DNA of 64,000 nt, taken from NCBI RefSeq assembly GCF_002104515.1, contig NZ_NBOE01000001.1, positions 930,001-994,000 of the forward strand, read 5' to 3'. The DNA is from Colwellia polaris (GTDB taxonomy: Bacteria > Pseudomonadota > Gammaproteobacteria > Enterobacterales > Alteromonadaceae). The notes under the pieces are model-generated. The model was not told where the DNA came from and searched no databases. It saw only the letters and a program-made list of their open reading frames with translations. The position numbers were made by a program, and so were the translations under genes. Shown piece by piece: positions 10,327 to 58,235 of this stretch (position 1 is its first letter; the number at the start of each line of letters is the position of its first letter).

Positions 10327-10410
10327 AAACAGTAGCGATGAAACAGTAGCGATGAAACAGTAGCGATGAAACAGTAGCGATGAAACAGTAGCGATGAAAC
10401 AGTAGCTATG
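10327..10410. repeat. Six tandem copies of a 14-bp unit
   Basis: The unit AAACAGTAGCGATG is repeated six times without spacer from 10327 to 10410; the last copy differs by one base (CTATG). It starts at the ygfX stop codon. The unit length is not a multiple of three, so it is not a coding repeat. It looks like slippage-generated sequence, which could vary in copy number between strains. Confidence 0.95.
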
Positions 10411-10463
10411 ACATTAAGTCTGAAAACACACTTGAATAAACTCAGCTAAAGCTAATCAACTAA

Positions 10464-36478: not shown

Positions 36479-37000
36479 TTAATCAGCTAACTCTGCAATT
36501 GTCTCAACTTGTTCAAGTGGTAAAAGTTGCTTGATCTTTTGTAAGTTTTTAACTGTAATTTCATTGTCATCAATTTTTACAGCAAGTTCAAAGTCGCTTA
36601 ATGCAGCATCTAATTGGTTTTGTCTATATCGAGCAACACCACGGTTACTGTAATTTAATGCAGTTAAAAATTTCACCTTGTTACTTTGGCGTTTTACTGA
36701 CTCTAAGGTATTAATAGCGTCGGTACAGGCTGATTCAGACTTGTTGCTATGACTAAGATCAGATTGCAAGTAAGCCACACATAAATTCATTTTATTAGCA
36801 TAAAAGTCTTGAGTTTTTTCACTTGAGGTTAATTTCTTTATACCTGACTCTACTTTGCCTTCTGTTAAGTCAGTAGTACCTACAGCGCCTTTAACAACAG
36901 CTACTTGAAATATCGAGTTGCTGGCCAAAGTTGAGTAACTTGTACTTAATAACAAAGTGGCTAATAGTGTGCTTGTTAACATTGATTTTTTCATTTTCAT
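36479..37000 (-). CDS. Exported TPR-like protein
   Basis: A 173-residue periplasmic protein. Residues 1-26 are a signal peptide (hydrophobic LLATLLLSTSYSTLAS). Near 110-145 a TPR-type motif is visible: LNYSNRGVARYRQNQLDAALSDFELAVKID fits the 34-residue TPR consensus. A second, weaker repeat may lie before it (LCVAYLQSDLS). Start is MKMKKS with GAGA close upstream; a second ATG two codons on is possible. Function unknown; TPRs usually mediate protein binding. It stands alone. Confidence 0.8.
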   Translation of the reverse strand: MKMKKSMLTSTLLATLLLSTSYSTLASNSIFQVAVVKGAVGTTDLTEGKVESGIKKLTSSEKTQDFYANKMNLCVAYLQSDLSHSNKSESACTDAINTLESVKRQSNKVKFLTALNYSNRGVARYRQNQLDAALSDFELAVKIDDNEITVKNLQKIKQLLPLEQVETIAELAD

Positions 37001-37388
37001 TTCTCTATATTAGTTGCGTATCAAATCGATACAGCATCAATATAGAGTCCAGCCCCCTTACTGACAAACGATTAGATTACACCCATCAAGTGAATATAAT
37101 TCATCTGTACTTCAATAGCTTAAGAGAACAGGTTGAATGCTTTGTTTTGATGAAATAAACAACAATTTATTGATATGATTCATGGTAAAACCATAGGCTA
37201 TGAATAGTTATCTCGCTGACATAATGATTTTTCAGTGATCTAATAACCAATAAATAGAATTCACAAAAAAGTGTCGAAGCAAATGGCTACGTTTTTTTAA
37301 ACAGTTCTTGCGTAGCTTTAGATATCGAAAATAGGCAACATTTTAGTTATTATCATTAACGCTTTTTAAATACTCTATAAGTTAAATT
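37001..37388. other. Intergenic gap without recognised element
   Basis: 388 bp, AT-rich, between a minus-strand and a plus-strand gene; it must hold both promoters. I see no strong terminator or operator. A short palindrome ATGGT-AAA-ACCAT lies near 37181-37193. Confidence 0.5.
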
Positions 37389-40118: not shown

Positions 40119-40997
40119 TTAAATCGAAAAGCTTTCTTTTACCCACTTGGCGAATAAGGTGAGTTCAGCATGGTTGTCCATATTTTCATGTTGAATAAGG
40201 TAATACTTGTCATTGGTATTTAATTCTTCGTCAAACAATTTTACTAATAGCTCTTCACTGAACCAGGCTTTACTCATTGGTAAAGGAACGAGTGCTATAC
40301 CCATGCCTTGTTGTGCAGCTCTTGCAACACCAAACATGCTATCAAACTGAATGATCTGCTTAGGATCAAAATCATCAATATTATTTTTATCAGCCCACTG
40401 ATGCCAAGACCATGGGCGAGATCTATGTAAAATTAATGGTGTAGTTTTTAAGGCGTCAAAACCAGAGTTCTTTAATTTTTTATACAGTTTTTTATTACAA
40501 GCAGGGGCATATCGAATAGGGAATAGCTCTTCCACTATTTTCGCGTTAGGTTTGCCATTAGCAAGTACGATAGATAAGTCTGCCGACTGTGAAGGCTCGC
40601 TGCCTGATTTTACCGTTTCTAGCTGTAAGTTAATGGTGGGGTTTTCTTCAGACCATTGTGATAACCGAGGAATAAATAATTCACTAGCAAAAAATTCCGG
40701 CAAACTAATCACAATAGTTTGGTTTTGTTGCTTTTGGGTGAACTCAGTTATAGTCGATTCTAACTGGGTAATAATGGGTTGAATAGATTGGTAAAATTGC
40801 TTTCCTGCACTGGTAAGCTCAATGGTGCGTGTACCTCGATTGAATAACACGATACCTAACTGTGTTTCGAGTTGTTTTATTTGATGACTAACAGCTGAAG
40901 GCGTTAAAAATAATTGTGATGCGGCATGTTTAAAGCTTAAGCATTTTGATGCTACGCAAAAAGAGCGAAGGCCACGTATAGGAGTTTGGATAGACAT
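40119..40997 (-). CDS. LysR-family regulator with sigma-54/NtrC-type promoter (Nac-like candidate)
   Basis: A 292-residue LysR-type transcription factor. The N-terminal winged helix-turn-helix is clear (LRSFCVASKCLSFKHAASQLFLTPSAVSHQIKQLETQLGIVLFNRGTRTIELTSAGKQFY) and the rest is the effector-binding domain; overall it looks GcvA-like. What sets it apart is its upstream region: a GG-N10-GC element 36-49 bp before the ATG and two GCAC-type dyads about 95-120 bp before the predicted start site. Nac, the known NtrC/sigma-54-controlled LysR of enterics, has this arrangement, so a role in relaying nitrogen limitation is inferred. The effector is unknown. Confidence 0.9.
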   Translation of the reverse strand: MSIQTPIRGLRSFCVASKCLSFKHAASQLFLTPSAVSHQIKQLETQLGIVLFNRGTRTIELTSAGKQFYQSIQPIITQLESTITEFTQKQQNQTIVISLPEFFASELFIPRLSQWSEENPTINLQLETVKSGSEPSQSADLSIVLANGKPNAKIVEELFPIRYAPACNKKLYKKLKNSGFDALKTTPLILHRSRPWSWHQWADKNNIDDFDPKQIIQFDSMFGVARAAQQGMGIALVPLPMSKAWFSEELLVKLFDEELNTNDKYYLIQHENMDNHAELTLFAKWVKESFSI

Positions 40998-41032
40998 AGT
41001 TAATATTTTTTAATGAAGACATGAATACAATT

Positions 41033-41046
41033 GCAAAACTCAAGCC
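41033..41046 (-). promoter_or_regulatory. Predicted sigma-54 promoter of the LysR gene
   Basis: On the minus strand CGGCTTGAGTTTTGCA carries GG (41046-41045) and GC (41034-41033) with exactly 10 bp between, and TTTGCA matches the -12 box TTGCA. The predicted start is about 41021, giving a 24-nt leader to the ATG at 40997. Confidence 0.6.
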
Positions 41047-41109
41047 GACTTTTAACTTGCTGTTTTTAAGGGTTTTATTTTATTGTTGTGCCTTTTTGAA
41101 GCTTTAGGG

Positions 41110-41148
41110 TGCACCATAATAGTGTGCTTGCACCAAAATGAAGGTGTA
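41110..41148. promoter_or_regulatory. Two NtrC-type binding sites upstream of the LysR gene
   Basis: TGCACCATAATAGTGTGC (41110-41127) and TGCACCAAAATGAAGGTGTA (41129-41148) both resemble the NtrC dyad (TGCAC...GGTGCA); the reverse of the first, CACTATTATGGTGCA, differs by one base from the enteric glnA site. Their centres lie about 97 and 117 bp upstream of the predicted sigma-54 start, right for enhancers, and 20 bp apart, close to two helical turns. Confidence 0.6.
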
Positions 41149-41192
41149 ATAGCGATTGAATTAAATACTTTAATTTAACTTACAAAAAGAAT

Positions 41193-41357
41193 AAAAAAAA
41201 GGACATCAAACGATGTCCTTAAAATGAAACAAAATTAACTATGTAAATTGCGTTTTGTAGAATCGGGGGAGACTCAAAAACAAGTTCATCTTAAGGGCAC
41301 TTCTCGTTCTCGGCAAACGAGATAATTTCATCTCATAGGTGAATTAAATTAATTTGT
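41193..41357 (-). ncRNA. Predicted small RNA, tandem array copy 1
   Basis: First unit (by coordinate) of a four-copy array with 304-bp period. On the minus strand it ends with the intrinsic terminator GGACATC-GTTT-GATGTCC plus eight T. A conserved TATGAT (41369-41364) can serve as -10 box, giving a start near 41357 and an RNA of about 165 nt; no good -35 is seen. It contains the C-rich segment TCTCCCCCGATTC, which could pair with Shine-Dalgarno regions. This copy has several substitutions relative to copies 2 and 3 (41229-41330 region). Confidence 0.55.
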
Positions 41358-41495
41358 CGATAAATCATACGATATTGTTTTTACGTTACTTTTTGCTTTT
41401 TTCTATATGAACGGAAAGCGAATAAGTTTCTTTTTTGTGATTTACTTATTGAATTTAAATGGTGATTTTTTTTGGTAAACATATAAAAAATACAT

Positions 41496-41661
41496 AAAAA
41501 AAAAGGACATCAAACGATGTCCTTAAAATGAAACAAAATTAACTATGTAAAGTGCGTTTTGTAGAATCGGGGGAGACTCAAAAACAAGTTCATCTTAAGG
41601 GCACTTTCCCTGCTCGGCAAACGAGATAATTTCATCTCATAGATGAATTAAATTAATTTGT
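41496..41661 (-). ncRNA. Predicted small RNA, tandem array copy 2
   Basis: Unit 2, nearly identical to copy 3. Terminator stem GGACATC/GATGTCC at 41505-41522 with nine T beyond it on the minus strand; TATGAT at 41673-41668. Inside, GCACTTT (near 41601-41607) pairs with AAAGTGC (near 41549-41555), placing the C-rich TCTCCCCCGATTC and GATGAACTTG in a large loop. TTCATCT-ATG-AGATGAA forms a small 5' hairpin. Length about 165 nt. Confidence 0.6.
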
Positions 41662-41799
41662 CGATAAATCATACGATATTGTTTTTACGTTAATTTTTGC
41701 TTTTTTCTATATGAGCGGAAAGCGGATAAGTTTCTTTTTTGTGATTTACTTATTGAATTTAAATGGTGATTTTTTTTGGTAAACATATAAAAAATACAT

Positions 41800-41965
41800 A
41801 AAAAAAAAGGACATCAAACGATGTCCTTAAAATGAAACAAAATTAACTATGTAAAGTGCGTTTTGTAGAATCGGGGGAGACTCAAAAACAAGTTCATCTT
41901 AAGGGCACTTTCCCGGCTCGGCAAACGAGATAATTTCATCTTATAGATGAATTAAATTAATTTGT
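41800..41965 (-). ncRNA. Predicted small RNA, tandem array copy 3
   Basis: Unit 3, differing from copy 2 by only a few bases (for example CCCGG for CCCTG and a loop change in the 5' hairpin). Terminator at 41809-41826 with a nine-T run; TATGAT at 41977-41972. It keeps the C-rich motif and the GCACTTT/AAAGTGC pairing. The upstream part (to about 42104) diverges from copies 1 and 2, so its promoter context differs beyond the -10 box. Confidence 0.6.
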
Positions 41966-42104
41966 CGATAAATCATACGATATTGTTTTTACGTTACTTT
42001 TTGCTTTGTTTATTTAGGGAAAATTAAACAGATAAGTTTTTTGGTGATTTATCTATTGAATTTAATTGGTTATTTTTTTGTGTGGGAACGTTAAAAAAAA
42101 GCAT

Positions 42105-42290
42105 AAAAAAAGGACACCAAACGGTGTCCTTGAAATGAAACAAATTAACTATGTAAAAACGTTGTGTCGAATCGGGGAAGATCCAAAAACAAGTTCATCT
42201 TAGAGTGATTTATTTCAAGCGGCAAACGAGATAAATTCATTTGACAGGTGAAAAAAATTCATCTAATTAAAAATAAAAACTCCCTTTAAT
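42105..42290 (-). ncRNA. Diverged array copy 4 in the 3' UTR of the acyl-CoA ligase gene
   Basis: The most diverged unit. Its terminator is GGACACC-AAAC-GGTGTCC (42112-42129): relative to the other copies one base pair has changed on both sides, a compensatory substitution that supports RNA folding. CCCCGATTC and AAGATGAACTTGTTTTTG are kept, but the TATGAT box is missing. It lies directly after the ligase stop (42321), so it may be released from that mRNA or simply terminate it. Homology fades near 42265-42290. Confidence 0.5.
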
Positions 42291-42320
42291 TTTCATCTTT
42301 AATCTTTGTTTTAAAACGCT

Positions 42321-43949
42321 TTACCTTAACTCTCTTCGTAATAATTTACCGACGGTAGACTTTGGTATTTCGTCAATAAATATTACATGCTTTGGTATTT
42401 TATAAGCGGTAAGACTTTGACGACAATGCGCAATAATATCCTCTTCAGTTATTTTTTTTTCCGCTTTTACGACAAAAAGCTTAACGGCTTCACCTGTTCT
42501 TTCATCAGGTACGCCAATACAAGCAGACTCTAACACGCCGGGCATTTTGGCAACCTCAGCTTCAATTTCATTTGGGTAAACATTAAAACCAGAAACATTA
42601 ATCATGTCTTTTTTACGATCAACAATGTGAAAGAAACCGTCATCATCAAGCATGGCAACATCGCCGGTTTTAAAGTAACCATCGGCTGTCATACATTCGG
42701 CAGTTGCAGTGGGGTTATTCCAATAACCTTGCATTACCTGTGGACCTTTAGCGCATAATTCACCTGACTCGCCATCGGCGACGATATTACCGTTGTCATC
42801 TCGAATCGAAATGTCAGTATTGGGCATCGGCACACCAATACCTGAAATATATTGACTTTGATCACTATTGCCAAAGTTTAAGGTGAGCACTGGTGAGGTT
42901 TCAGATAAGCCATAGCCTTCATATAGTCTAGCGCCAGTAACTTCTTGCCACTTATCTGCTACGGCTTGTTGAACTGCAGCACCGCCACCTACGCACACTT
43001 TTAAGGCTGAAAAATCGACTTGATCAAACCCTGGGGTATGTAGCAAACCGTTAAATAAAGTATTTACGCCTGTAAAGGTTGTCGCTCGGGTGTTTTTCCA
43101 AATTTCAACAAAACTTTCCATATCGCGAGGGTTAGTAACGAGTACATTTTTAGCCCCAAAACAGAAGTAAGCGAGTGTGTTCGCCATCAACGCGAAGATG
43201 TGATACATCGGGATCGCGGTAATAACAATGTCATTACCATGGTCGATATGTTTTTTAGTAAACTCTTGATATTGCAAAATGTTGGCAATTAAATTGCCAT
43301 GACTAAGCATAGCGCCTTTAGAAAGCCCTGTGGTTCCTCCAGTGTACTGAAGGAATAGTAAGTCACTATGTGTTATTGCTGGCGCTGTCAATTCAAGTTG
43401 TTCACCTTGTGTTAAGGCGTCAGTGAATTTAATGGTATTGGTTAAGCGTTCGTCGAGCGGAGCACAAGGTAAACATTTATCAACTAAATCATCTAAATTT
43501 ATCGTTATAACGTTGTTCACTTGGGTTTGATCAAGTATGTCAGCTAACATTTTGCTTGATTGAGAAAATATAATTATCGTATCAACTTGGGCATCGTTAA
43601 GTTGATGTGTTAACTCTCTAGCCGTGTATAAAGGGTTTACGTTAACTTGCACCGCACCAATGCGTATTATGCCCCACATAGCAATGGGGAAACATAGTGT
43701 GTTCGGACACATTAGAGCGACACGTTCACCTTTGGCAATAGCTAATTTATTTTGCAAGTAGGCGGCAAAATTACGTGAAAGTTCGTCAACTTGCTTGAAG
43801 GTAAGCTCAGTGCCAAAGTTACTGTAGGCGGTTTGCTGATCATACTTAGTGGTTGTTTTATGAAATAAGTCTAATAAAGAATCGTAACGCGATAAATCGA
43901 TTTCATGCGCTACGTTTTCTGGATAATTTTCCATCCAAGGTTTAGTCAT
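42321..43949 (-). CDS. AMP-forming acyl-CoA ligase (FadD-like)
   Basis: An adenylate-forming enzyme of 542 residues activating a carboxylic acid, probably a long-chain fatty acid, to acyl-CoA. Start is the ATG at 43949 (MTKPWMENYPENV), preceded by AAAGGAAATAAC; a longer frame lacks a good site. Motifs: LQYTGGTTGLSKGAMLSHGN (P-loop), YEGYGLSETSPVLTLN, YFKTGDVAMLDDDGFFHIVDRKKDMINVSGFNV (hinge and FadD signature) and the catalytic Lys in IPKSTVGKLLRREL. It follows an aldehyde dehydrogenase gene by 68 bp, so aldehyde to acid to CoA ester is a sensible route. Confidence 0.9.
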   Translation of the reverse strand: MTKPWMENYPENVAHEIDLSRYDSLLDLFHKTTTKYDQQTAYSNFGTELTFKQVDELSRNFAAYLQNKLAIAKGERVALMCPNTLCFPIAMWGIIRIGAVQVNVNPLYTARELTHQLNDAQVDTIIIFSQSSKMLADILDQTQVNNVITINLDDLVDKCLPCAPLDERLTNTIKFTDALTQGEQLELTAPAITHSDLLFLQYTGGTTGLSKGAMLSHGNLIANILQYQEFTKKHIDHGNDIVITAIPMYHIFALMANTLAYFCFGAKNVLVTNPRDMESFVEIWKNTRATTFTGVNTLFNGLLHTPGFDQVDFSALKVCVGGGAAVQQAVADKWQEVTGARLYEGYGLSETSPVLTLNFGNSDQSQYISGIGVPMPNTDISIRDDNGNIVADGESGELCAKGPQVMQGYWNNPTATAECMTADGYFKTGDVAMLDDDGFFHIVDRKKDMINVSGFNVYPNEIEAEVAKMPGVLESACIGVPDERTGEAVKLFVVKAEKKITEEDIIAHCRQSLTAYKIPKHVIFIDEIPKSTVGKLLRRELR

Positions 43950-44017
43950 GTTATTTCCTTTCGCAACGGGTTGCATTTAGGCTTGAAAACTAAAGTTAAA
44001 CAAGCAAAGTAAGTTAA

Positions 44018-56462: not shown

Positions 56463-58235
56463 TTAGTGGAGTAACGCAAAAATTAGCCCAATAAATAATA
56501 AGGCTGATAATGATTGCCAAAATAAAATGGGGTTACGTTTTAATAACGGCTGACTGTTGTATTCTTCAACGGCATTTGTTTGTGGGTTACTTAAATCAGC
56601 AAAAAACTCTGAAAAAGCGTTATAGCGCAATTTAGGGTCAGCCTGGGTTGCTTTTTGTAAACTTAAATCTAACCATAAAGGTAATTCAGGTCGAAACTGT
56701 TTAATGCTGCGATATTGCATGCTGTTATAATCTTTAATCGTTACCTCAGCCCGCTGCATGGGTTTATAGGGGAGCTCGCCTGAGAGCATTTCATAACAAA
56801 TAACGCCTAAAGAAAATAAGTCACTTTGATTGTCTGCTCTCATGTGTAATAACGTTTCAGGCGCAATATAGTTTAAAGAGCCAAATGGCACTTCTTCTTT
56901 AATGGTTTCTTGGTTTTCATCGAGCGAAGCAACAAATACAGTGCCGTAATCAATCAATTTAATGTGGCCATATTGATCGATCATAATATTGTCGGGTTTT
57001 AAATCACGATGCACTAAATCTAAGCGCTGAAAGGCTCGTAATGCGCTAATAACTTGTTTCATAATATCGCGTACTTGGGCAATGCTCGGTTTAGGATTGT
57101 CGTGTAACCATTCACCTAGTGTTTGGCCTTGCAAGTATTCGCAAACGTGATACAAAAATTGGCTGTTTTTTCTGCCGGGCAGCACTCGCATTACATTACC
57201 GTGCTTAATACGTTCGCCAACCCAAGCTTCTCGCATAAACCCTTGTAAATAAATAGCATCTTCTGAAAAGTTAGCTGAAGGTGTTTTTAAAACATAAGGT
57301 TTATCTGTTTCCGTATCTATAACTAAATACAAATGTGATCGAATGCTAGCGTGGATCACTTTTTTGATCAGGTAGCCGTCTAGCTTCTGCCCAACTTTTA
57401 ATGCTGGTGGTATTACTTTTGTACTAAGATCACGCTGAATTTCAGCCAGTTTACGATTCGGTACGGCTTTAACATAAACTAATAAGCAGGTGAGGTTATC
57501 GTTACTACCTTGCTCAAGTGCCGTGTTAACTATTTCAATTGAGAGGGCTTCTAAATCACCTTTTTCTGGTGATACGGGTAAAGCATCAAACAGGGTTTTA
57601 AAAACCGGCTTTGTTATATGGTCATGAACGCCATCACAACTTAGCATGTATAAATCGCCCGATTGTAAATCAACCTGATGCACGTCAACTTCTAAACGGT
57701 TATCAGCACCCAAGGCACGGGTTAATAAAGCTTGTTGGCCAATTTGCTTGCGATTATGATCGCGTGTAATAACCTCTAATTGAAGATTACGATACTTGGT
57801 GATGCGAGTATCACCGACATGAAAAATATAGCCAGTGTTAGATTTAGCAATTAAGGCTGAAAACGTGGTAAGCCATTGCGGAGAATTCTCATCGGCTAAA
57901 CCCTCCACAAAATCACTTTGTGAATACAGCCAGTTATTTAAACTGGTTAATACTTTGGCAGCTGACTTTTGCGTTGACCAAGTTTCAGGGGTCGCGAGAT
58001 ATTCTTGAATAAATTGAGTAACAGCAAGTTGCGAGGCATCTGCCGCTTTATTAGCACTTGATAGCCCATCGGCAATAGCCGCAACAGCACCTTTAGCACG
58101 TAATTCGTGGCTTTGGGGCACAATAGCGGCGAAAGCGTCTTGGTTTTCGGCCTTTAAACCTTTTGAAGAAAATCCGCCAATGCACAATTGCAAATCTGCA
58201 ACCGTGCTTTGGTTTCGCTGGGTTTCATTACTCAT
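56463..58235 (-). CDS. Fused PP2C phosphatase / Ser-Thr protein kinase
   Basis: A 590-residue signalling protein. The N-terminal PP2C domain (about 1-245) shows GFSSKGLKAENQDAFAA, VAAIADGLSSA, VGDTRI and QGSNDNLTCLLV with the metal-binding Asps. The kinase domain (about 285-550) has LVHRDLKPDNIMIDQYGHIKLIDYG (catalytic HRD and DxG variant DYG) and APETLLHMRADNQSDLFSLGVICYEML. A C-terminal membrane helix (ILFWQSLSALLFIGLIFALL) anchors it. It lies 6 bp after narK and upstream of nirBD; in Pseudomonas a kinase of this type also neighbours nirB and the nitrate transporter. Its target is unknown. Confidence 0.92.
   Translation of the reverse strand: MSNETQRNQSTVADLQLCIGGFSSKGLKAENQDAFAAIVPQSHELRAKGAVAAIADGLSSANKAADASQLAVTQFIQEYLATPETWSTQKSAAKVLTSLNNWLYSQSDFVEGLADENSPQWLTTFSALIAKSNTGYIFHVGDTRITKYRNLQLEVITRDHNRKQIGQQALLTRALGADNRLEVDVHQVDLQSGDLYMLSCDGVHDHITKPVFKTLFDALPVSPEKGDLEALSIEIVNTALEQGSNDNLTCLLVYVKAVPNRKLAEIQRDLSTKVIPPALKVGQKLDGYLIKKVIHASIRSHLYLVIDTETDKPYVLKTPSANFSEDAIYLQGFMREAWVGERIKHGNVMRVLPGRKNSQFLYHVCEYLQGQTLGEWLHDNPKPSIAQVRDIMKQVISALRAFQRLDLVHRDLKPDNIMIDQYGHIKLIDYGTVFVASLDENQETIKEEVPFGSLNYIAPETLLHMRADNQSDLFSLGVICYEMLSGELPYKPMQRAEVTIKDYNSMQYRSIKQFRPELPLWLDLSLQKATQADPKLRYNAFSEFFADLSNPQTNAVEEYNSQPLLKRNPILFWQSLSALLFIGLIFALLH

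Follow-up and report, generated by a model that had tools for sequence, protein, structure and literature searches.

What is encoded by a unit repeated four times between two genes of Colwellia polaris, and what controls it? The window that we analyzed is a stretch of 64,000 nt of this genome, and the repeated units fill an intergenic region with a LysR-type gene (40119-40997) on one side and an acyl-CoA ligase gene (42321-43976) on the other, all on the minus strand. A sequence-only reading had described four tandem units of about 304 bp, each ending in an intrinsic terminator on the minus strand, and had taken them for sibling small RNA (sRNA) genes. We confirmed the array: Tandem Repeats Finder reports a repeat at 41193-42202 (period 304, 3.3 copies, 92% matches, score 1646), and BLAST of the C. 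polaris genome found four copies of the unit, all within the array. Compared to copy 1, the identity is 97% for copy 2, 96% for copy 3 and, over its aligned stretch, 81% for copy 4; CCCCGATTC and AAGATGAACTTGTTTTTG are common to all four. Minus-strand intrinsic terminators were predicted at the four expected places, compared to a mean of 0.7 in shuffled sequences. With a predicted promoter and terminator for each copy, the sequence also supports the reading as sibling sRNA genes on the minus strand. A covariance model of the RNA alone (R1), a step suggested in the same reading, recovers the RNA in relatives, with matches in 15 of 17 genomes of the genus; as the RNA is conserved in other species, the array is not a product of chance. 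The copies and their terminators are:

41193-41282, minus strand: sRNA copy 1, length about 90 nt, with the start placed to within about 3 nt (R1 match 41193-41285, 103.5 bits)
41497-41586, minus strand: sRNA copy 2 (R1 match 41497-41589)
41801-41890, minus strand: sRNA copy 3 (R1 match 41801-41893)
42104-42191, minus strand: sRNA copy 4, diverged (R1 match 42104-42194, 109.8 bits)
41199-41220, 41503-41524, 41807-41828 and 42110-42131, minus strand: terminator stems of copies 1-4, each a 9-bp stem followed by a T run

Two other readings of the array were rejected. For plus-strand transcription, three plus-strand promoters are predicted in copies 1-3 against a mean of 6.0 in shuffles, and the terminators of all four copies belong to the minus strand. 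For a short open reading frame, no ATG stands ahead of the terminator in copies 1-4, and a 14-codon TTG frame of copy 1 is not conserved owing to one-base indels among relatives. Elsewhere in the window (10327-10411) a 14-bp tandem repeat, AAACAGTAGCGATG, occurs in six copies with 98% matching.

The RNA would be considerably shorter than had been proposed. In 32 upstream sequences from named loci, anchored on the RNA start, a conserved block spans positions -72 to -26, little is conserved from -25 to -9, and a TAnnnT box at -8 to -3 is followed by the conserved sequence CTTGTTTT. We read this profile as an operator plus -35 region, a spacer of 17-18 nt and a -10 element, with the transcript start near the G of CTTG. 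Beyond an unconserved spacer of 17 nt, the conservation closes with this TAnnnT box, eight bases ahead of ACTTG; the start thus lies about 75 nt further downstream, and the length comes to about 90 nt instead of the earlier estimate of about 165 nt. Relatives show a TA(A/T)GAT -10 element, a variable spacer of about 17 nt and an operator of 47 bp whose T-N11-A dyad is near -65. The TATGAT that had been noticed is present in copies 1-3 and absent from copy 4 as described, and a role as promoter is not supported, as it lies upstream of the conserved operator and its position is not conserved in relatives. The -10 element and the hairpin discussed below are:

41288-41293, minus strand: -10 element TAAGAT of copy 1
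41260-41275, minus strand: C-loop hairpin of copy 1, GAGUC-UCCCCC-GAUUC (covariation, arms in each sequence, fold)
41564-41579, 41868-41883 and 42169-42184, minus strand: equivalent hairpins of copies 2-4

Two helices fit the RNA, namely a stem of mostly 5-7 bp with a C-rich loop and the terminator. In an alignment of 50 distinct sequences (A5), which was fitted to the covariance model and is hence biased towards it, 12 of 14 pairs show changes on both sides, and paired cells make up 92.5%, compared to 79.6% in shuffles and at most 60.8% in slid versions. All nine pairs of the terminator stem are changed on both sides in some sequence. Counted sequence by sequence and without a shuffle control, a C run lies between complementary arms in 48 of the 50 distinct RNAs, 40 of which have at least five pairs. 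Unconstrained RNAalifold on a second alignment (A2) recovered the terminator alone; by eye, MAFFT shifts the hairpin by 1-2 columns in five rows. The C-rich block, previously taken to be unstructured, is thus the loop of a covarying hairpin, and the idea that it is suited to pairing with Shine-Dalgarno sequences gains support from a C-rich loop kept across relatives. An AU-rich strand between hairpin and terminator may be of the type usually bound by Hfq. Rfam 15 gave no match in the window at gathering thresholds, and 11 matches up to E 10 in 41000-42330 were all far below their gathering scores, in line with the earlier statement that no named RNA family is present. Rfam contains models for LhrC and the alphaproteobacterial CCR RNAs; neither these nor the GcvB model matched in the window at threshold or in 41000-42330 up to E 10. 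The RNA family appears not to have been described before.

By BLAST, the unit occurs in 18 of 98 genomes of the relatives set, own genome included. R1 matched 38 of 246 genomes and 10 of 52 genera of the family, and 4 of 295 genomes drawn from the order, one of these outside the family (82% complete, 260 contigs); the strict filters applied to sets above 40 genomes miss diverged members. The family includes 58 genomes with the LysR-type gene (lysR) and no model match. We searched the stretch upstream of lysR in 19 of them, plus the RNA stretch of genome G218: ten of these 20 stretches gave E < 0.001, four were marginal (E 0.016-0.071) and six had no match; RNA and operator are visible by eye in all four marginal ones. 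Arrays reach five copies. With the operator matrix described below, five tandem operators were found at one Psychrosphaera locus (L187) and three at another (L170); behind each operator stands an RNA-like unit that has a UCCUC-type loop as well as a terminator. These diverged RNAs gave no covariance-model match at E 0.01. In G005, G006, G009 and G010 a second RNA copy lies 13 kb away. At the loci of G009 (L029) and G010 (L028) the two copies flank a 13-kb block encoding, among others, proteins of 835, 1114 and about 830 aa, which looks like an insertion that separated two array copies; the window has no counterpart between array and lysR.

Sequence comparison gives good support to the RNA, to its operator and to the linkage with lysR. 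The gene in the window is:

40119-40997, minus strand: LysR-type regulator, GcvA-like, proposed activator of the sRNAs (Pfam HTH_1 and LysR_substrate)

Its product scores 199.6 bits with the NCBIfam GcvA model, below the cut-off of 288; among the best 25 of 53 matching families, GcvA ranks first, followed by the choline-sulfate and DsdC regulators, and no Nac model is present. It is 69-96% identical to 14 other aligned proteins, the nearest relative in the LysR tree being that of Colwellia sp. BRX10-3 (94%). We checked 19 loci, drawn from 30 family loci with those of the own genus left out, and found a LysR gene after the RNA on the same strand within 1.5 kb in 17; it was not found at L053 (G218) and L058 (G047; a short stretch). 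A lysR orthologue (E up to 1e-60) is present in 36 of the 38 RNA-positive genomes, compared to 94 of the 246 family genomes overall. Across 80 named lysR loci, 820,920 bases in total, the model gave 54 matches, distributed over 40 loci; every one is on the lysR strand and at most 1.5 kb upstream of the gene. The RNA-positive genomes without a lysR match are G047 (80% complete) and G218; as the latter is 100% complete, the RNA can stand without lysR. G218 carries a clear orphan sRNA copy (L053/L116), with no lysR match nearby or in the genome search. Within the genus, G014 and G016 have no RNA, and G014 also has no lysR (the lysR search did not include G016). In the LysR tree a single supported set of 48 rows contains all 41 RNA-bearing rows, that of the window among them, and RNA presence needs 5 changes, compared to 27.5 in shuffles. 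Names on the RNA side include Colwellia, Cognaticolwellia, Pseudocolwellia, Litorilituus, Thalassotalea and Thalassomonas; at the Pseudoalteromonas and Rheinheimera loci, lysR is present and the RNA model has no match.

The sequence upstream of each copy suggests which regulator would read the array:

41311-41357, minus strand: operator of copy 1, LysR-type RBS and ABS with -35 region (weight matrix, conservation profile)
41615-41661, 41919-41965 and 42220-42266, minus strand: operators of copies 2-4 (weight matrix)
37062-37108, minus strand: fifth operator of the window, before the TPR gene (33.6 bits), followed by a -10 element TATATT at the right distance
36479-37000, minus strand: TPR-repeat protein with signal-like N-terminus (Pfam TPR_1 and TPR_2, below their cut-offs)

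Counted from the first model base, 44 of the 54 matches have the centre of a TGAA-N5-TTCA dyad (a T-N11-A motif) 61-62 nt upstream, which places it at about -65 from the likely transcript start. This is the usual dyad position of LysR-type activators, and with a second site near -35 the layout is that of a LysR-activated promoter. LysR-type proteins are described as binding a recognition site and an activation site, with T-N11-A as typical motif (PMC11739112). We trained an operator matrix on 32 of the 54 matches (one copy per named locus, dyad at -61), with which the four array operators score 52-54 bits each. In the 80 lysR loci an operator was found upstream of lysR in 44 and within 1.5 kb after lysR in 56, compared to 0 of 795 randomised regions; because of the training set the upstream scores are partly circular, and the sites in the window and those after lysR lie outside that set. 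Upstream operators occur at 40 of 47 Colwellia/Thalassotalea-type loci and at 4 of 33 other loci, operators after lysR at 34 of 47 and 22 of 33, respectively. With one mismatch at most, a short operator pattern matched nothing in the own genome but the four sRNA promoters; at up to three mismatches it gave 64 sites compared to 70 in the control, and the operator before the TPR gene was missed as well. Nine places in the own genome (e.g. C3:1799, C7:87571, C12:602790 and C24:64012) share the identical 18-mer AGGAAATATTCTCGTTTA, which is probably part of a repeated element.

After the fifth operator, the next best minus-strand score in the window is -3.2 bits, and the TPR protein is a likely second target of the LysR protein. 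Operators after lysR mostly precede a TPR homologue, although at several Pseudoalteromonas loci no homologue was detected. The TPR gene adjoins lysR in many species. The notion of the sRNAs as the dedicated target of the LysR protein was dropped as too strong, given the operator before the TPR gene. Because operators of this type go with lysR also at loci in which no RNA was found, the older circuit may be that of lysR and the target downstream of it.

From this we consider that the neighbouring LysR protein probably activates the sRNAs. That the sRNAs are real and a different regulator binding near lysR is their activator, such as another LysR-type protein or a response regulator, seems unlikely to us. 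A spacing of 22 bp between TGAA half-sites would also suit a response regulator; however, a T-N11-A dyad near -65 with a second half-site is a LysR layout, and in several genera the operator is found on both sides of lysR, also at loci that gave no RNA match.

The gene lysR itself looks nitrogen-controlled. Upstream of it we found:

41032-41047, minus strand: sigma-54-type promoter element of lysR, CGGCTTGAGTTTTGCA
41108-41139, minus strand: NtrC-like sites, two TGGTGCA half-sites

A sigma-54 element of the form GG-N8-YTGC (GG-N10-GC type) lies 40-95 bp before lysR in 77 of 79 scorable named loci, compared to 57 of 3950 controls, and at least two NtrC-type half-sites lie further upstream in 53 of 79, compared to 2 of 3950 (one locus at a contig end, L125, was excluded from these counts). 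The half-site test was passed by 34 of 40 RNA-bearing loci and by 19 of 39 loci without model match, and it failed in 17 of 27 Pseudoalteromonas loci. NtrC scored over its cut-off in all six genomes tested, and the window contains nitrate and glutamine genes coding for ABC transporter proteins, an ANTAR regulator, a nitrite-reductase-like protein and a glutaminase. From the elements at lysR, the presence of NtrC and these nearby genes we infer that the RNAs respond to nitrogen; with lysR read from a sigma-54 promoter with NtrC-like sites, they should rise when nitrogen is short. A gene at 56463-58235 (minus strand), between an MFS transporter gene and a nitrite-reductase-like gene, combines PP2C-type phosphatase and protein-kinase domains.

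The position of the array could also mean that the units are repeated segments of a 5' leader, a cis-acting leader or attenuator whose terminators control read-through into lysR; at the loci examined, the last unit is on the same strand as lysR and precedes it by roughly 150-550 bp. We regard this as very unlikely, since between the last terminator and lysR there is a conserved sigma-54 element for lysR itself, every unit has its own promoter and terminator, the second copy in G005, G006, G009 and G010 is 13 kb away, and no unit was found at Pseudoalteromonas lysR genes.

As trans-acting RNAs, the transcripts would carry a UCCCC loop beside a 5' GUUUUG tail, a combination that suits masking of Shine-Dalgarno sequences of the GGGGA type. 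GGGGAGA occurs near ATG at 25 sites of the own genome (control 11) and at 111 sites in eight relatives (control 64), although some excess of Shine-Dalgarno sequences is to be expected in any case. We grouped 110 of the 111 sites in relatives (one G001 site was left out) with the 25 own sites; 127 of these 135 were parsed and 62 had an ORF of at least 40 aa. The groups that recur among the nine genomes are a DUF1302 protein (9/9), a lipase (7/9, a further site being cut by a contig end) and a FadD-type ligase (7/9), the first two named by Pfam and the third by eye from similarity to acyl-CoA ligases. A thioesterase-like group (5/9) has a site that looks internal to a longer frame, and ETF-QO, AtpG-like and one other group reach 2/9 each. 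The DUF1302 gene keeps GGGGAGA in all 16 genomes having the gene, including the RNA-less G014 and G016. The FadD-type site is present in 11 of 14 best copies in RNA-bearing genomes and in neither best copy of G014 and G016, a comparison that leans towards targeting by the RNA but is confounded with paralogues; GGGGA was found in 11 of 15 best FadD copies (L379-L393), all from RNA-bearing genomes, and in 0 of the 15 other copies listed. Duplex energies are modestly better than those of shuffled RNAs (7 to 116 of 300 shuffles as good). These lipid and fatty-acid genes are a lead only.

A protein-binding decoy, i.e. a sponge for CsrA or Hfq instead of a base-pairing RNA, would likewise explain multiple copies, as multi-copy sponges exist, among them the Csr RNAs of Pseudoalteromonas, which carry many GGA motifs according to the available part of PMC11882849. 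The copies read here have one or two GGA motifs per RNA, one of them within the terminator stem, which makes a decoy highly improbable. A functionless repeat, mobile debris or an attC-like array is hardly credible, even though copies 1-3 are tandem and nearly identical, given the constant position beside lysR across genera, the covarying stems, the conserved operator and the finding of no recombinase or transposase among the ten plus five proteins scanned in the window itself.

Taken together, our findings are best explained by sibling trans-acting sRNAs activated by a LysR protein whose gene is itself under sigma-54 and NtrC, and we hold this explanation as a whole to be probable. Nitrogen stress would act through NtrC on the sigma-54 promoter of lysR, and the GcvA-like LysR protein would activate all copies by binding the dyad near -65 and a second half-site reaching the -35 region; comparison between genomes shows the promoter layout, the operator, the linkage and the sigma-54 element, from which control by NtrC and binding by this LysR protein are suggested. 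Each copy, from its own promoter to its own terminator, would give an RNA of about 90 nt with a 5' tail GUUUUUG, a small hairpin with a UCCCC(C) loop, an AU-rich single strand for Hfq and the terminator, a structure equally shown by comparison. The loop would pair with G-rich Shine-Dalgarno sequences and block translation, and tandem copies would raise the RNA dose; Hfq, repression, its anti-Shine-Dalgarno mode and the targets are what we infer. Colwellia and Thalassotalea relatives are common cold-ocean heterotrophs. A more far-reaching and rather doubtful proposal is a nitrogen-response RNA arm in marine Colwelliaceae, in which NtrC and sigma-54 act on a GcvA-like LysR and this on a gene-dosage array of anti-Shine-Dalgarno RNAs. 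Under growth limitation by nitrogen, not by carbon, these RNAs might switch off the genes for taking up and oxidising lipids and fatty acids (DUF1302 protein, lipase, FadD-type ligase); the LysR/TPR circuit would have come first, and the array would have been added in some branches and amplified several times. The findings provide a defined RNA family together with its likely activator and a matrix for the operator, and they point to a physiological condition for tests; the natural copy-number series (1 to 5) can be used to ask for what reason sRNA genes are multiplied in bacteria.

No paper on this RNA was among the literature matches listed for sRNAs of Colwellia, Thalassotalea or Alteromonadales, for sibling or multicopy sRNAs and for small RNAs with LysR or NtrC, a coverage with subscription journals mostly outside it. 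GcvB is about 200 nt long, compared to about 90 nt for the array RNA. The nearest published arrangement that we found is GcvA/GcvB of Enterobacteriaceae and relatives, where gcvA is divergent from gcvB and GcvA raises a gcvB fusion about 400-fold, as given in the accessible part of PMC1557403. In both systems an sRNA gene lies beside a LysR-type gene whose product activates the RNA, as proposed here. However, the array is on the same strand as lysR, consists of tandem copies and differs in RNA sequence and structure; the LysR protein is below the GcvA cut-off, and its gene has sigma-54/NtrC elements. Since no Rfam model matched, GcvB included, and the LysR protein fails the GcvA cut-off, we file the RNA as a family of its own that would work like GcvA/GcvB and kin. 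In Listeria LhrC and Neisseria NgncR_162/163, C-rich segments pair with Shine-Dalgarno sequences. Like the array RNAs, these are multicopy, near-identical siblings (PMC4132741, PMC9973317, as far as the accessible parts go); LhrC is linked there to the two-component system LisRK, whereas the array RNA is without Rfam match. NrsZ is a nitrogen-responsive sRNA directly under NtrC and sigma-54. GlnZ derives from the glnA 3'UTR and represses sucA under nitrogen limitation (PMC9731577, in the part available). As with GlnZ and NrsZ, nitrogen control would be linked to carbon metabolism, but in the array system a LysR step would be interposed. Nac is a LysR-type nitrogen regulator whose gene is under NtrC and sigma-54; the lysR of the window resembles it in its sigma-54/NtrC elements and differs in that its product scores best with GcvA.
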